Below the pieces are notes generated by a model. That model saw nothing but the letters and a program-made list of their open reading frames with translations, did not search any database and had not been told where the DNA came from. The position numbers were made by a program, and so were the translations under genes. Shown in pieces: positions 10,416-16,307 of a stretch of DNA of 48,424 nt (position 1 is its first letter; each line of letters opens with the position of its first letter). The stretch is taken from assembly GCA_947453295.1 (NCBI GenBank), contig CANGGD010000003.1, positions 1 to 48,424 of the forward strand, in the 5' to 3' direction. Origin of the DNA: Chitinophagaceae bacterium (GTDB taxonomy: Bacteria > Bacteroidota > Bacteroidia > Chitinophagales > Chitinophagaceae).

Positions 10416-13400
10416 ATGAAAAAACTATTTCCTATCCTTTACCTATTTCTTTTATTATTTATTTCAATTTCAACTACGGCACAATACAAACCACTTTGGA
10501 TTCCAGATACGCTTTCGGGAACAACCTTTAATTTAAATATCAAAGACACATTTTCTCAAATATTACCGGGCCAACAAACAGTTACAGCTGGTATCAATAA
10601 TAAATTTTGGGGGCCAACATTGTTTTTCAATAAAGGAGATACGGTTCATCTTAATGTAAGAAATTATCTCAATGATTCTACAACTTTACATTGGCATGGA
10701 TTGCATTTGCCTGCTGTAATGGATGGAGGACCTCATCAGATCATTCCTCCTGGTACTTTATGGCAACCCTTTTGGAAGGTGACAAACAATGCTGCTACCT
10801 ATTGGTATCATCCACACCTACACGAAATGACGCAAGATCAAATTACAAAAGGTGTAGGCGGTTTAATAATTGTAAGAGATCCTGTAGAAGCGGCTTTACC
10901 TTTACCCAGGAAATATGGCATTGATGATATTCCGTTAGTTTTAACCGACAGAGATTTTACCACAGCAAATCAATTTAGTGTTGTGCCTTATGGCGATAGT
11001 TCTTTAGTAAATGGAGTATTAAGTCCGCAGTACACAATTCCGGCTCAAGTAGTGAGATTTAGAATTTTAAATGCAGCCATTGAAAGATCTTATAATTTAG
11101 GATTTAGCGATAATAGAGCATTTTATGTAATTACATCTGATGGCGGTTTATTAAATCAGCCTGTATCCTTAACCAGATATTTGTTATCACCAGGAGAAAG
11201 AATAGAAATTTTAGTTCAATGCAACGGTCAAGCCGGAACTAATTTTGATTTGAAGGCTTATAATTCAACGTTGTCTAATTTCATTGGTGGTGGTGAAAAT
11301 TTCATTAATGGGCCATTTGCTAATGCTTTAGGGAAAAAAGATTTTAGAGTATTGCATCTTAATGTTGGAGCACAAGGTGCAAATCCTATTACTACTATTC
11401 CTTCATCTTTAACTGCTAATATTTTTCCTTCAGAAGCCAACTCCGCAATAACAAGAACGGTTACCCTATCTGATTCTGCAGGAAGCAACTTTCCAAATGT
11501 TACTATTCTTGGACCCAATGCTTTTTTGATTAACAGAAGAATGTTTAACATAAGCTATAATGATTATAATGTTCCTTTAAATAATACTGAAATCTGGGAG
11601 TTAAAAAGCTCTTCTATTTTTGCGCATCCATTTCATATACATGATGTAGAGTTTTATATTTTATCAAGAAACGGCATAGCGCCTCCAAATTACGAGCAAG
11701 GTTGGAAAGATGTTGTGTTAGTAAAGGCAAATGAAACGGTTAAATTTATTGCCAAATTTGATGATTATGCTGATAATATTCATCCTTTCATGTACCACTG
11801 TCATATTTCATTGCACGAAGATGAAGGTATGATGGGTCAATTTGTAGTTGGAAGCACAACGCCCACTGCAAGTGTTTCAAGTATGAGTTGCAATAATGCA
11901 TTTTTTTCTACAACAGCCACAGTTAATTCTAATTACAATGGAACTGCTACTGTTGCCTATGCCGGAGGCAATGGAGTTGCTTATTCGGCAGGAAGTGCAA
12001 TTTCTTCAATTGGGGTAATCGGTTTAACTGCTATACTTCAACCAGGAACCTTAAGTAATGGGCTAGGCAATTTTATATATAACATAACAGGTACGCCTAC
12101 TTCATCTGGAGTTGCAAGTTTTCCAATTAGTTTTAATGGAATTAATTGCGTTATTAATTTAAATGTTAACAATAGTATTCCAGCCCCATCATCTAATCGG
12201 AATGTAATGCTGATTATTGCTGATGATATTGGTACAGATTATTTTGGTTTCTATGAAGACCATCAGGATACGGTAGCCGTTCCTCACCTAAGATATCTTG
12301 CTGAGCACGGAGTTAAATTTACAAATGTAACTTCCGATCCGGTTTGTTCTGCTACCAGAGCTACGATGATTACTGGAAGATATAGTTTCAGAACCGGCGT
12401 AGGTGGTATCATTGGTGGTATTGGTGGATCGGGCGTGTTGGATACCAATGAAATTATCATTCCGAAAATATTAAAATCTTTCAATCAGAATATTACAAGA
12501 GCTCATATTGGAAAATGGCATTTGCACCAACCTATGCCCGCTATAAATGTTACTGCTCCCAACAGAATGGGCTTTCAGCATTTTGAAGGACCATTTACCG
12601 GAACATTAACTCCTAGTTATTTCGACTGGACTAAAACCACTAACGGCATAACATCAACGAATACTAATTATGCAACCACCGAAGAAACCAATAATGCTTT
12701 TTCTTGGATAAAAAATAATGTTGACAAGCCGTTTTATGTTTGTTTGGCATTAAATGCTCCGCACGACCCCATTCATCTTCCACCATCTGGCTTACATCAA
12801 TTTACAAACCTAACTGGAACGCCTGTTGATATCAATCGTAATTCCAAAGAATATTACAAAGCAATGATTCAAGCCATGGATCATGAATTAGGAAGATTAT
12901 TTGATTCTTTAAAAGCCATCAATAAATTTGATAGCACCGATTTTATTTTTATTGGTGATAATGGCTCCATTGCAAAAGTTGCACAAACAGCAGATACAGG
13001 AAGAGCAAAAGGAACACTTTATGAATACGGTACACACGTGCCTTTAATGATTGCAGGCCCTTCTGTTATAAACCCAGGTAGAGTTTCAAATGCTTTAGTA
13101 AATACAGTAGATATTTTTGCTACTGTTTTAGAATTATTTGGACAATACAATTGGTCCTCTCAAATACCAATCAATAAACCGGTAGACAGTAAGAGCTTAA
13201 TGCCAATACTCAAAAATCAAAATAATACCATTAGACAATGGTCGTTTTCTGAAATTTTTAAAACAGTTAAAGATTCTTCTGACGGAAAGGCAATCAAAAA
13301 TCTTGAATATAAATTGATTCGTTTTGATGACGGAAGAGAAAACTTTTTTAAACTCTCTGTTGATCCAAAAGAAACAAAAAATCTTTTGAAAGACGCATTG

Positions 13401-13763
13401 GTAGAAGCCGATTATAACAATTACATCTATTTATGTAATCAGATGAATCTGTTACTCAATAATAATTTAACATGCAGTGCCGTAAGAGCAGACTCATCAA
13501 ATAACGCTGATGTTGATTTTAATTTTAGTATTAATCCAAATCCTGTAGCTAATGTAATTAATATCAAATTCAATTCTACAAAAACTAAAGCTTATTATAT
13601 TTGGATTTGTGATGCAGTGGGAAGAACAATGATGATGTTGCCTCAGCCTGAAATTACTAATGGTATTAATGTTGCGGCTTTATCAAAAGGAATATATTTT
13701 ATAAAAATTATGGATGAAGCAAATAAAAAAATCATCACAAAGAAATTTATAAAAGGGTCGTAA
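10416..13763 (+). CDS. Secreted multicopper oxidase-sulfatase fusion with T9SS sorting domain
   Basis: A 1115-residue secreted protein with two enzyme domains. After a signal peptide (1-22) comes a complete multicopper oxidase (about 23-480): HWHG at 92-95, HPHLH at 132-136, HPFHIH at 404-409 and HCHISLHEDEGMM at 461-473, so ligands for type 1, 2 and 3 copper are all present. Residues about 485-590 form a beta domain also found in the next gene. From about 595 there is an alkaline-phosphatase-superfamily sulfatase: metal residues Asp603 and Asp604, the modification motif C644-S-A-T-R648 (CxAxR instead of the common CxPxR), and Asp848-Asn849 in GDNG. Residues about 1035-1115 (INPNPV ... GIYFIKI) are a type A T9SS sorting domain. 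No frameshift separates the parts. Both substrates are unknown. Confidence 0.9.
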   Translation: MKKLFPILYLFLLLFISISTTAQYKPLWIPDTLSGTTFNLNIKDTFSQILPGQQTVTAGINNKFWGPTLFFNKGDTVHLNVRNYLNDSTTLHWHGLHLPAVMDGGPHQIIPPGTLWQPFWKVTNNAATYWYHPHLHEMTQDQITKGVGGLIIVRDPVEAALPLPRKYGIDDIPLVLTDRDFTTANQFSVVPYGDSSLVNGVLSPQYTIPAQVVRFRILNAAIERSYNLGFSDNRAFYVITSDGGLLNQPVSLTRYLLSPGERIEILVQCNGQAGTNFDLKAYNSTLSNFIGGGENFINGPFANALGKKDFRVLHLNVGAQGANPITTIPSSLTANIFPSEANSAITRTVTLSDSAGSNFPNVTILGPNAFLINRRMFNISYNDYNVPLNNTEIWELKSSSIFAHPFHIHDVEFYILSRNGIAPPNYEQGWKDVVLVKANETVKFIAKFDDYADNIHPFMYHCHISLHEDEGMMGQFVVGSTTPTASVSSMSCNNAFFSTTATVNSNYNGTATVAYAGGNGVAYSAGSAISSIGVIGLTAILQPGTLSNGLGNFIYNITGTPTSSGVASFPISFNGINCVINLNVNNSIPAPSSNRNVMLIIADDIGTDYFGFYEDHQDTVAVPHLRYLAEHGVKFTNVTSDPVCSATRATMITGRYSFRTGVGGIIGGIGGSGVLDTNEIIIPKILKSFNQNITRAHIGKWHLHQPMPAINVTAPNRMGFQHFEGPFTGTLTPSYFDWTKTTNGITSTNTNYATTEETNNAFSWIKNNVDKPFYVCLALNAPHDPIHLPPSGLHQFTNLTGTPVDINRNSKEYYKAMIQAMDHELGRLFDSLKAINKFDSTDFIFIGDNGSIAKVAQTADTGRAKGTLYEYGTHVPLMIAGPSVINPGRVSNALVNTVDIFATVLELFGQYNWSSQIPINKPVDSKSLMPILKNQNNTIRQWSFSEIFKTVKDSSDGKAIKNLEYKLIRFDDGRENFFKLSVDPKETKNLLKDALVEADYNNYIYLCNQMNLLLNNNLTCSAVRADSSNNADVDFNFSINPNPVANVINIKFNSTKTKAYYIWICDAVGRTMMMLPQPEITNGINVAALSKGIYFIKIMDEANKKIITKKFIKGS

Positions 13764-13803: not shown

Positions 13804-15453
13804 ATGAGAAAATCTATATTACTGTTTAGCATCTTTTTTTATTCCCTAGTTTCAATTGCACAAACCAATCCTGCAATAGTTTCTTGGCTTCAAAATACTA
13901 ATGGAACAAAAGGTCGTCATTATGTAAATGGGAATTCAACCCCAATTCAAGATAATGATTTAGCCAATGTGCAGCAGGTTTCTTACTCTAATAGTTGGGC
14001 TTATATCAAAACCAATGGAATCCCTTCTTATGTTACTGGTCCGTTTTTAGATGGCAATCCTTCCATTGCAACAACTCAAAATGCAATTTTCAAAGTTTCA
14101 TTAAATCCATTACAAAACACTGGAACCCCTGTTAACACAACAGGAGGCAACATTGGACTTTTTATAAATGGAGTAGCCTTATTCGATTATAGAGATGGCG
14201 TATCGTGGAGAAATGCTACCAATTCATTAGCTGGTGGTCCGTTAGGTGGATTTGGTGATGGCGTTTGGAACAGAGATGCGGTTGTGGGAGAATTAAAAGG
14301 ATTTGATTGTTCAAAAGGACATCCTGCAATGGGCAATTATCATCATCATCAAAACCCTAGTGCTTTTAATCTTGACTTGAATGTTGTTTCAACAGTTTGT
14401 AATCTATATACTTCAGATGGTTTATATGTAATAGATAGCACTCGGCATTCTCCACTTATAGGTTTTGCTTATGATGGATTTCCAATTTATGGAGCTTATG
14501 CATATAAAAATGTAGATGGAACAGGTGGTATTACAAGAATGAAATCGAGTTATGTGTTAAGAAATATTACAGTCAGAAATACTAACTCAAATGGCGCTAC
14601 TGTAACTCCGGGACCTGCAGTAAATGCTACTTATCCTTTAGGTTATTTTAGAGAAGATTATCAATACAATGCTACCAACACTAATACTCCCGATTATCTT
14701 GATGAGCATAATGGAAGATTTTGCATAACACCAGAATACCCAAATGGAATCTATTGCTATTTTGCAACAGTTGATAACAAATGGAATTCTGCATACCCTT
14801 ATGTTGTTGGTCCAACTTTTTTTGGAACAAGAACAACTACAAAAGTAAATGCAATTACAGAACCTGTGCAACAATATACACAACCACTTCCCGTAGCCAC
14901 TGTTAATGCAATTAGTTGTAATGCTGTTGTGTTTTCAAATCAAAAAGCAATTGTGAAAACTGCTTATAGCAGTACAGCAAGCGTTCCATATTCTGGAGGA
15001 AATGGAATACAATATGCTATCGGAGCTGTTACAAATTCAACCGGTGTTTTTGGATTAACAGCAACATTGCAGGCTGGAACGTTGGCAAATGGAAATGGGA
15101 ATTTAATATATAACATATCCGGAACTCCGGCAGATACTGGCATGGCTTCATTTGCTATAAATTTTGGTGGAAAGAGTTGTACAATTAATTTGAAGATAAT
15201 AGAAAAAGCAAGTTGCGATTTTTGTGTTGTGCCAAATCCAATACAAAACAATATTTTGAAATTAAATATGGCTGCCGATAACAAAATAAATGGTTTTTGG
15301 ATTTATGATGTTGTTGGAAAATTGGTTTATCAAGCAGTACAACCAGATGTTAAAAAAGGGATTGATATTTCAAGACTACCCAAAGGATCTTATATAATTA
15401 AGGTTATAGAAGAAAAAAGCAATCAGGTATTTACAATGGAGTTTGTGAAATAA
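13804..15453 (+). CDS. Secreted YHYH domain protein with T9SS sorting domain
   Basis: 549 residues, 41 bp after the oxidase-sulfatase gene on the same strand. A signal peptide (MRKSILLFSIFFYSLVSIAQ) is followed by a YHYH-type domain: Y179-HHH-Q near residues 179-183 and the family signature AYDGFPIYGAYAY at 222-234. Residues about 365-460 repeat the beta domain of the neighbour (SCN...GGNGIQYAIG...GVFGLTATLQAGTL). The C-terminus (about 475-549, VVPNPIQNN ... KGSYIIKVIEE) is a T9SS type A sorting domain. YHYH proteins have no firmly known activity; the histidine cluster suggests metal binding. Co-transcription with a multicopper oxidase makes a copper- or oxidation-related role plausible. Confidence 0.85.
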   Translation: MRKSILLFSIFFYSLVSIAQTNPAIVSWLQNTNGTKGRHYVNGNSTPIQDNDLANVQQVSYSNSWAYIKTNGIPSYVTGPFLDGNPSIATTQNAIFKVSLNPLQNTGTPVNTTGGNIGLFINGVALFDYRDGVSWRNATNSLAGGPLGGFGDGVWNRDAVVGELKGFDCSKGHPAMGNYHHHQNPSAFNLDLNVVSTVCNLYTSDGLYVIDSTRHSPLIGFAYDGFPIYGAYAYKNVDGTGGITRMKSSYVLRNITVRNTNSNGATVTPGPAVNATYPLGYFREDYQYNATNTNTPDYLDEHNGRFCITPEYPNGIYCYFATVDNKWNSAYPYVVGPTFFGTRTTTKVNAITEPVQQYTQPLPVATVNAISCNAVVFSNQKAIVKTAYSSTASVPYSGGNGIQYAIGAVTNSTGVFGLTATLQAGTLANGNGNLIYNISGTPADTGMASFAINFGGKSCTINLKIIEKASCDFCVVPNPIQNNILKLNMAADNKINGFWIYDVVGKLVYQAVQPDVKKGIDISRLPKGSYIIKVIEEKSNQVFTMEFVK

Positions 15454-15470
15454 GTATTATATATCCCAAC

Positions 15471-15530
15471 AAAAAACCCCTACAACTCACGCTGCAAGGG
15501 CTTCTGTAAAATAAAAACCTGCTGTAGGGG
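15471..15530 (-). terminator. Terminator of the tRNA-like RNA, sharing its acceptor strand
   Basis: On the minus strand CCCCTACA (15530-15523) pairs perfectly with TGTAGGGG (15484-15477), followed by six T. An inner stem GCAGG/CCTTGC tightens the loop. The first arm is the 3' acceptor strand of the tRNA-like fold, so the two structures exclude each other. Confidence 0.75.
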
Positions 15531-15697
15531 AAGGGTTCGAACCTTCACGAGGAAGTTAGCCATAACACAAATGGTTTCGGTGGTCGATCCCGGATGAAAC
15601 ACCGTTTCCAATGTTTCAACTCTATGTTACGTTTATCCTTTTATCCTCACCCCCGAGACAAGAGGGCATGTCTGCCAAAGAATTTCATCACCCCACA
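15471..15697 (-). ncRNA. tRNA-Leu-like structured RNA with about 100-nt insert and intrinsic terminator
   Basis: Read on the minus strand, the ends form a tRNA. Acceptor strands TGTGGGG (15697-15691) and CCCTACA (15529-15523) pair over all seven positions with one G.T. A D-arm (ATG/CAT, 15-nt loop AAATTCTTTGGCAGA, like tRNA-Leu) follows, then an anticodon-like arm (CCCTC/GGGGG, loop TTGTCTC, 15666-15650) and a canonical T-arm (GAAGG, TTCGAAC, CCTTC; 15546-15530). Instead of a variable loop there are 103 nt (15649-15547) with a long-range helix CGTAACA/TGTTATG (15631-15625 with 15567-15561) and a 9-bp hairpin with a GAAA loop (15617-15596). The acceptor 3' strand also forms one arm of a terminator. 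The anticodon would read GUC with U37, and base 73 is G, so ordinary tRNA function is doubtful. I found no match to tmRNA or a group I intron. Confidence 0.65.
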
Positions 15698-15833: not shown

Positions 15834-16307
15834 ATGGCCGGAAAATTAAATCTTGACAAACTTGACCTGCAAATCATAGAAGCTATGATGAATAATGCAG
15901 AGATTTCTTATGCCGAATTAGGTAAGAAACTATTTGTTAGTGGAGGTACTATCCACGTTCGTATCAAAAAACTACAAGAGTTTAAGATAGTTAAAGGTAC
16001 AAGGTTAAATGTAGATTTAAAACTTTTAGGATATGATATTACTGCTTTTGTAGGAATTTATCTAGAAAAAAGTTCACTCTACGATAACGTGGCTAAAGAT
16101 TTAATGAAGATTCCTGAAATTATTCGTCTTAACTATATTACTGGTAACTATAGTATGTTTATTGAAGTGGTTTGTAAAGATATTACTCAATTGCGTTTTG
16201 TGTTGCATGATGAACTTCAAAAAATTAAAGGCATTGAAAGAACTGAAACATTTATTTCCCTTGAAGAAGGATTTTCTAGAAATGTTCCAGTGGCACCATT
16301 GTCATAA
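15834..16307 (+). CDS. Lrp/AsnC family transcriptional regulator
   Basis: 157 residues, the family's usual length. Residues about 8-55 are the winged helix-turn-helix (LDLQIIEAMMNNAEISYAEL, then GGTIHVRIKKLQEFKIVKG) and about 65-145 the RAM ligand/oligomer domain (YDITAFVGIYLEKSS, YITGNYSMFIEVVCKD). The layout is like LrpA/AsnC regulators that sense amino acids. It stands alone: upstream is an AT-rich stretch and the tRNA-like RNA read the other way; downstream is a convergent glycosyltransferase whose stop codon is 8 bp away. Its targets cannot be told. Confidence 0.9.
   Translation: MAGKLNLDKLDLQIIEAMMNNAEISYAELGKKLFVSGGTIHVRIKKLQEFKIVKGTRLNVDLKLLGYDITAFVGIYLEKSSLYDNVAKDLMKIPEIIRLNYITGNYSMFIEVVCKDITQLRFVLHDELQKIKGIERTETFISLEEGFSRNVPVAPLS

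Follow-up and report, generated by a model that had tools for sequence, protein, structure and literature searches.

Synthesis of asparagine on tRNA-Asn has been proposed, in the accessible part of the source, for bacterial genera that have AsnRS, GlnRS, and GatCAB but lack an Asn synthetase; making asparagine in this way needs a non-discriminating AspRS, and Bacteroidetes are among the 18 surveyed genera with this combination of genes (PMC4206432). According to the portion of PMC9976931 that deals with tRNA identity, G73, G34, U35, C36, and C38 are strong determinants for Asp and G2-C71 is a minor one, G1-C72 aids the E. coli AspRS, U1-A72 is a determinant for amidation of Asp-tRNA-Asn, and amidation of Asp-tRNA-Asp is prevented by G1-C72 together with U20a. 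Control of asparagine supply is described, in the available extract of PMC8707732, for E. coli, in which AsnC activates asnA and asparagine reduces this activation.

We analyzed a window of 48,424 nucleotides (the whole stretch of DNA, from a Chitinophagaceae bacterium). Comparative sequence analysis confirmed that its minus strand from 15697 to 15521 holds a predicted tRNA-like RNA that belongs to a real, conserved family. We observed the family itself, its structure and identity bases, its synteny with AsnC, and its co-occurrence with GatB; our preferred reading, to which we give a probability of roughly two in three, is that the RNA is a dedicated, non-decoding carrier tRNA for tRNA-dependent asparagine synthesis. 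The features of the locus are as follows.

15521-15697, minus strand: whole tRNA-like RNA, positions 1 to 74, 177 nt (match of 155.8 bits to the family model; homologues found by blastn)
15691-15697, minus strand: 5' strand of the acceptor, TGTGGGG, with U1 of the U1-A72 pair first
15523-15529, minus strand: 3' strand of the acceptor, CCCTACA, with A72 last
15522, minus strand: discriminator G73
15668-15688, minus strand: D-arm of the tRNA-Leu type, with a 3-bp stem
15650-15666, minus strand: anticodon arm of 5 bp; its loop, 15661-15655, reads TTGTCTC, with GUC (Asp) and C38
15549-15648, minus strand: expanded variable arm of about 100 nt (covariation; motif counts across copies)
15530-15546, minus strand: T-arm with the loop TTCGAAC
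15471-15500, minus strand: terminator-like hairpin and T run 3' of the RNA (seen by eye in the sequence)
15834-16307, plus strand: gene for an AsnC-like regulator, divergent from the RNA, with its start codon 137 nt from the RNA 5' end

An earlier note on this DNA had described an acceptor, a D-arm, an anticodon arm, a 103-nt insert, and a T-arm on the minus strand, and all of them lie at the positions it gave. The acceptor forms 7 of 7 pairs, one of them a G.U pair, and 103 nt (15649-15547) separate the anticodon arm from the T-arm. The claims of a G73 without an encoded CCA and of a pyrimidine at position 37 also proved correct: G73 at 15522 is followed by C-A-G, and position 37 is U. The variable arm of this copy comprises a 4-bp stem, a 4-nt bulge, a 3-bp stem, a GATAAA/CTAA internal loop, a long-range helix, and an apical hairpin. 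The label "tRNA-Leu-like" is apt for the shell of the molecule and wrong for its identity, the bases being those read by AspRS and GatCAB; the genomic surroundings, too, suggest a tie to asparagine metabolism. A terminator scan of the window region reported none, the hairpin at 15471-15500 included, and the sigma-70 promoter scan used a model not made for Bacteroidota. When the window RNA was folded as a single sequence, the z-score was -1.51, and 19 of 200 shuffles folded equally well or better; since this is not clearly above chance, the case for an RNA rests on comparison.

That comparison supports the suggestion, made in the same note, of a new tRNA-derived RNA class; none of the refuting outcomes that the note had named for homologues, covarying stems, and Rfam was borne out. 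Homologues were sought with blastn, which gave matches in 33 of the 59 genomes searched, the window's own included, and with a covariance model of the family built on 11 copies. By this model, 171 of the 298 genomes in an order sample carry the RNA (best E < 1e-25), as do 31 of the 296 in a phylum sample (a match of at least 94 bits); these two thresholds define "RNA-bearing" below, and tallies at E 0.001, which take in ordinary tRNAs, were not used for such counts. Scores in the phylum sample split in two among the matches listed, at least 94 bits versus at most 66 bits, and ARAGORN identified 28 of 30 low-scoring loci (at most 58 bits) as ordinary tRNAs, the remaining two (L255 and L257) being contig-cut members of the family. 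Covariation was likewise sought in the helices that had been claimed. In a MAFFT alignment of 21 copies, RNAalifold predicted 55 pairs, 20 of them with compensatory changes, and these include pairs within the insert, both in its long-range helix and in its apical hairpin. An alignment of 67 distinct rows to the model, which was fitted to the structure, is hence biased towards it, and includes one false row, has pairing in 98.7% of cells and changes on both sides in 16 of 27 pairs; none of 500 shuffles reached either value, and pairing fell to 55-64% when the partners were slid. The false row (L026, contig C32 of genome G046) resembles the 3' half of the RNA, and no recognizable 5' half was found nearby.

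Among the matches listed, the RNA ranges over Chitinophagales, Cytophagales, Sphingobacteriales, Saprospiraceae, and one Ignavibacteriales metagenome bin, and the genera include Chitinophaga, Ferruginibacter, Niabella, Pedobacter, Mucilaginibacter, Dyadobacter, Spirosoma, Algoriphagus, and Cyclobacterium. Complete copies are 109 to 211 nt long and share a 7-bp acceptor, a 3-bp D-stem, a 5-bp anticodon stem, and a canonical T-arm. Their variable arm has a 4-bp stem, usually a 4-nt bulge on the 5' side, and a 3-bp stem; in most copies GAYAAA faces CTAA in an internal loop, and the distal helix varies in length (four rows, L026, L130:345-415, L186:3441-3553, and L189:3239-3332, were dropped from the motif and length count). 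CCA is encoded in only 21 of 263 copies among the matches listed, so CCA addition is assumed for the others. Two to five copies of the RNA stand in 53 of 201 loci among the matches listed; one locus of Phaeodactylibacter xiamenensis (L172:312-1053) holds five in tandem. The T-loop is split by a short insert, alike in both cases, in L172:915-1053 and in L255:1501-1664 (minus strand), which are probably dead copies. Elsewhere in the window's own genome lies another, distinct tRNA-like stretch, about 136 nt in length and including a long insert (L237; G000:C100:1111-1246, minus strand), which scores 40.6 bits on the family model and is not evidently related to the family.

As an RNA, the family is absent from Rfam 15 and was not met in our literature search; as a pathway, what we propose would be a variant of tRNA-dependent asparagine synthesis. 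No Rfam 15 family matched at its gathering score, and the four matches up to E 10 are unrelated and all far below gathering; ARAGORN found no tRNA in the window; and the literature search, which worked at the level of titles and abstract beginnings and covered few subscription journals, found no description of such a tRNA-like RNA. Several known classes were rejected: a tmRNA, which the earlier note had also discounted, because neither ARAGORN nor Rfam gave a match; an intron-bearing tRNA, discounted there in its group I form, because no Rfam intron matched and the insert sits in the variable arm and not in the anticodon loop; a bacterial Y RNA (YrlA), because Rfam gave no match up to E 10; and a phage or plasmid element, because there was no match in two collections.

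The identity bases were counted in 99 distinct copies (loci L001-L086) that had been found by whole-RNA similarity and not by an anticodon pattern. At least 120 stretches from a pattern scan of named genomes (loci L087-L206) were left out because the search pattern fixed GTC, a non-A base at 37, and C38; a 77-nt form from genome G396 and contig-cut copies were excluded as well. In this set, which was mostly taken best-scoring first and thus leans towards conserved copies, U1-A72, G2-C71, U3-A70, U35, C36, and C38 are each present in 99 of 99 copies, and G34 and G73 each in 98; every one of the AspRS determinants G34 U35 C36, C38, G73, and G2-C71 is therefore found in 98 or 99 copies. The tRNA-Asp of the window's genome has G1-C72 and the loop CTGTCAC, and its tRNA-Asn has U1-A72 and the loop CTGTTAA, so that the RNA, with Asp-type loop bases and U1-A72, unites an Asp anticodon loop with an Asn-type first pair. 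Two points speak against the fit to AspRS and GatCAB: the G1-C72 of tRNA-Asp is absent, all 99 copies having U1-A72 instead, and the D-loop is of the longer Leu type.

Decoding tRNAs have U33 and a purine at position 37. Across the 99 copies, position 33 is U in 77, C in 15, A in 6, and G in 1, and position 37 is U in 92, C in 5, G in 2, and never A (the window copy has U at both), so the decoding-type bases are not kept: all four bases occur at 33, and the base at 37 is mostly a pyrimidine. A decoding tRNA-Asp was rejected on these two positions. A variant of tRNA-Asp that serves translation under some condition would account for the Asp anticodon and the AspRS determinants, but it is very improbable given the same two positions, the presence of an ordinary tRNA-Asp in the window's genome, and a U1-A72 pair that would invite amidation. 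The conserved GUC loop might also be that of a decoy soaking up anticodon nucleases that cut GUN anticodons; this we regard as scarcely credible, as it leaves U1-A72, G73, AsnC, and GatB unexplained and no match was found in phage or plasmid collections.

The co-occurrence with GatB, from which the presence of GatCAB was judged, was followed in 75 genomes of the phylum sample, namely, the 31 RNA-bearing ones and 44 of the 265 others, hand-picked for family spread. GatB exceeded its cut-off in each of the 31 RNA-bearing genomes. AsnRS was over cut-off in all 50 class genomes among the 75, and 46 of the 50 also had GlnRS over cut-off; where both are present, GatCAB is not needed for translation. 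Within these 46 genomes, GatB occurred in 27 of the 27 RNA-bearing ones and in 0 of the 19 others. The two class genomes in which GatB occurs without an intact RNA, G366 and G396, both lack GlnRS; four genomes (G484, G588, G590, and G598) are RNA-bearing yet without GlnRS. The pattern recurs in the window's family, where GatB was found in 67 of 68 RNA-bearing genomes versus 2 of 17 others, one of these two (G018) having an RNA that a contig end cuts off after its first part. In three genera (g1, g27, and g50), genomes without both RNA and GatB stand beside genomes with both; since related genomes are not independent samples, we weighted such joint losses at the genus level above p values. The link is weaker in the whole order, where GatB, counted irrespective of GlnRS and, as for the window's family, at E 1e-60, was present in 164 of 171 genomes with the RNA versus 56 of 127 without it, 7 of the 171 having no GatB match at this threshold. 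A repeat search of 39 of the 56 genomes with GatB and without the RNA, under less strict filters, gave as its 30 best loci the 28 ordinary tRNAs and 2 contig-cut members described above; a contig-cut RNA is known in three of the 56. RNA and GatB tend to come and go together in genomes.

The distribution of asparagine synthetases bears on the same reading. E. coli-type AsnB (NF006949) was over cut-off in 14 of the 75 genomes and in 0 of the 31 with the RNA; it occurred in 14 of the 21 class genomes without the RNA (one copy with internal stops) and in 0 of the 23 others. AsnA was found in 3 of the 31 RNA-bearing genomes (G092, G484, and G588). A TIGR01536 protein was over cut-off in 27 of the 31, the window's own genome having two (472 and 383 bits), so another source of asparagine may exist in these cells. 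Four TIGR01536 proteins from three RNA-bearing genomes scored 249-312 on NF006949, for which the cut-off is 499; such sub-cut-off scores do not show that TIGR01536 proteins are incapable of making asparagine. Four RNA-bearing genomes that are 99-100% complete (G142, G130, G507, and G566) had no TIGR01536, AsnA, or NF006949 protein over cut-off. In family f29, AsnA is present and GlnRS absent in both sampled genomes, and the loops read CTCTCTC in G484 and CTATCTC in the 77-nt form of G396; judged from these sequences, the RNA looks eroded there, as expected if AsnA relieves the need for it. Genomes G092 and G588, which combine AsnA with an intact loop, fit this idea less simply.

For AspRS, we presume that His at one site marks the non-discriminating type; the residue is His in the Asp/Asn enzyme 4wj3, Leu in E. 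coli, and His in 0 of the 19 AspRS compared here. Between 10 genomes with the RNA and 9 without it, the site did not differ. Because the role of this residue as a marker is presumed and the site is the same with and without the RNA, this comparison is only a hint; a literature search on AspRS types found no residue markers.

The AsnC-like protein encoded beside the window RNA scores 154.6 bits on the NCBIfam AsnC model, below its cut-off of 227, and its best PDB match is 2cg4, an AsnC. Among the matches listed, an AsnC homologue was found in 149 of 201 RNA loci and was divergent in 149 of 149, with 122-253 nt between start codon and RNA 5' end in 148 loci and 741 nt in L186; some contigs stand in two collections and were left unmerged in this count (e.g., L049/L103, L039/L160, L073/L191, L072/L121, and L078/L146). 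No AsnC homologue was found at 52 of the 201 loci; at some of these the sequence stops there, and others, several of them from Cyclobacteriaceae and Saprospiraceae, have flanks that extend for kilobases. TAnnTTTG is a Bacteroidota promoter element. Among the matches listed, 146 of the 247 flanks examined (120 nt upstream) contain it, versus 22 on average in 200 mononucleotide shuffles, with the largest group 40-49 nt upstream of the RNA; the window RNA's own upstream flank holds no exact copy.

The tight divergent pairing with an AsnC-like gene could also be that of a regulatory sensor, in which the charged state of the RNA (Asp or Asn) would report amino acid supply to AsnC or another partner and the RNA would not be the route by which asparagine is made. 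The earlier note had named a regulatory tRNA mimic as a possibility, which we treat as a rival and not as the favored reading. The conserved arm could bind a protein, and many RNA-bearing genomes have an AsnB-like protein, both of which would suit such a sensor. We nevertheless consider it unlikely: by itself it leaves unexplained why, among genomes with GlnRS and AsnRS, GatB is kept only together with the RNA and why E. coli-type AsnB is absent from RNA-bearing genomes, and 52 of the 201 loci among the matches listed have no AsnC beside the RNA.

When neighboring open reading frames were clustered, again among the matches listed, the AsnC-like cluster led with 150 loci, followed by two unannotated clusters at 81 and 65 loci. 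The second-ranked one, conserved at L069, L070, L094, L117, and 16 further loci, looks by eye like what we take to be SufB. In the window itself, a protein with a YHYH domain and a type IX secretion tail (13804-15453, plus strand) is encoded convergently with the RNA, and 10416-13763 (plus strand) is a single frame in which multicopper oxidase domains and a sulfatase domain are combined with a tail for type IX secretion. Dedicated non-proteinogenic tRNAs serve cell wall synthesis, and with this precedent the same identity bases and non-decoding loop would suit an RNA that carries Asp or Asn for a different transfer (to cell wall, lipid, small peptide, or in protein modification) by a tRNA-dependent transferase. 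This reading is distinctly less probable than a sensor: no transferase was seen as a conserved neighbor, the two clusters at 81 and 65 loci being unannotated, and the AsnC link and the AsnB pattern point to asparagine supply.

Beyond co-occurrence and determinants, we infer from sequence the steps by which the RNA might act as a carrier for asparagine synthesis: charging, amidation, release, exclusion from the ribosome, and control by asparagine. AspRS would charge the RNA with aspartate because it has G34 U35 C36, C38, G73, and G2-C71, and GatCAB would amidate the bound Asp to Asn because the RNA has U1-A72, which is absent from the cell's tRNA-Asp. After its release, the Asn would serve the ordinary AsnRS as a substrate; the unusual anticodon loop and the large arm would prevent Asn on a GUC anticodon from reaching the ribosome; and the divergent AsnC-like regulator may tune the RNA to asparagine supply, as AsnC controls asnA in E. 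coli. With less assurance, although we still lean towards it, we suggest that much of one phylum may make asparagine on a dedicated RNA cofactor, a former translation tRNA in which AspRS and GatCAB identities are joined, which carries a docking arm (perhaps as a scaffold for AspRS, RNA, and GatCAB), and which AsnC controls in place of asnA.

If this is true, the family would be a new class of noncoding RNA with a metabolic task, neither regulatory nor decoding. It would explain why GatCAB is retained in bacteria with AsnRS and GlnRS, a question raised, for Bacteroidetes among others, in the accessible part of PMC4206432, and it would allow asparagine to be made on an RNA with no need for a lax AspRS and its risk of mistranslation. 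These predictions are open to test in culturable genera.

The closest relative of the proposed route is tRNA-dependent asparagine synthesis in Bdellovibrio, Deinococcus, and Thermus as given in the available text of PMC4206432, with which it has in common GatCAB beside AsnRS and GlnRS and, as we propose from sequence, a U1-A72 carrier on which Asn arises from RNA-bound Asp. In that pathway, a non-discriminating AspRS and GatCAB act on tRNA-Asn (PMC4206432, same text), whereas the carrier proposed here would be distinct from tRNA-Asn and would combine an Asp anticodon with a large variable arm and a loop of non-decoding type; a non-discriminating AspRS would then not be required. The locus resembles the E. 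coli AsnC-asnA pair, as presented in the extract of PMC8707732, in that a gene proposed to supply asparagine lies next to one for an AsnC-like regulator; it differs in that the partner is an RNA gene and not asnA, and the regulation is putative, by analogy. With class II tRNA-Leu, the RNA shares the D-arm, the T-arm, and a long variable arm, but it has a GUC loop, G73, U1-A72, and an expanded arm. The staphylococcal tRNA-Gly for the cell wall is a non-proteinogenic tRNA and is alike in being kept for work outside translation, whereas the family described here would serve another amino acid and has a chimeric identity, an expanded arm, and a range that spans several orders.
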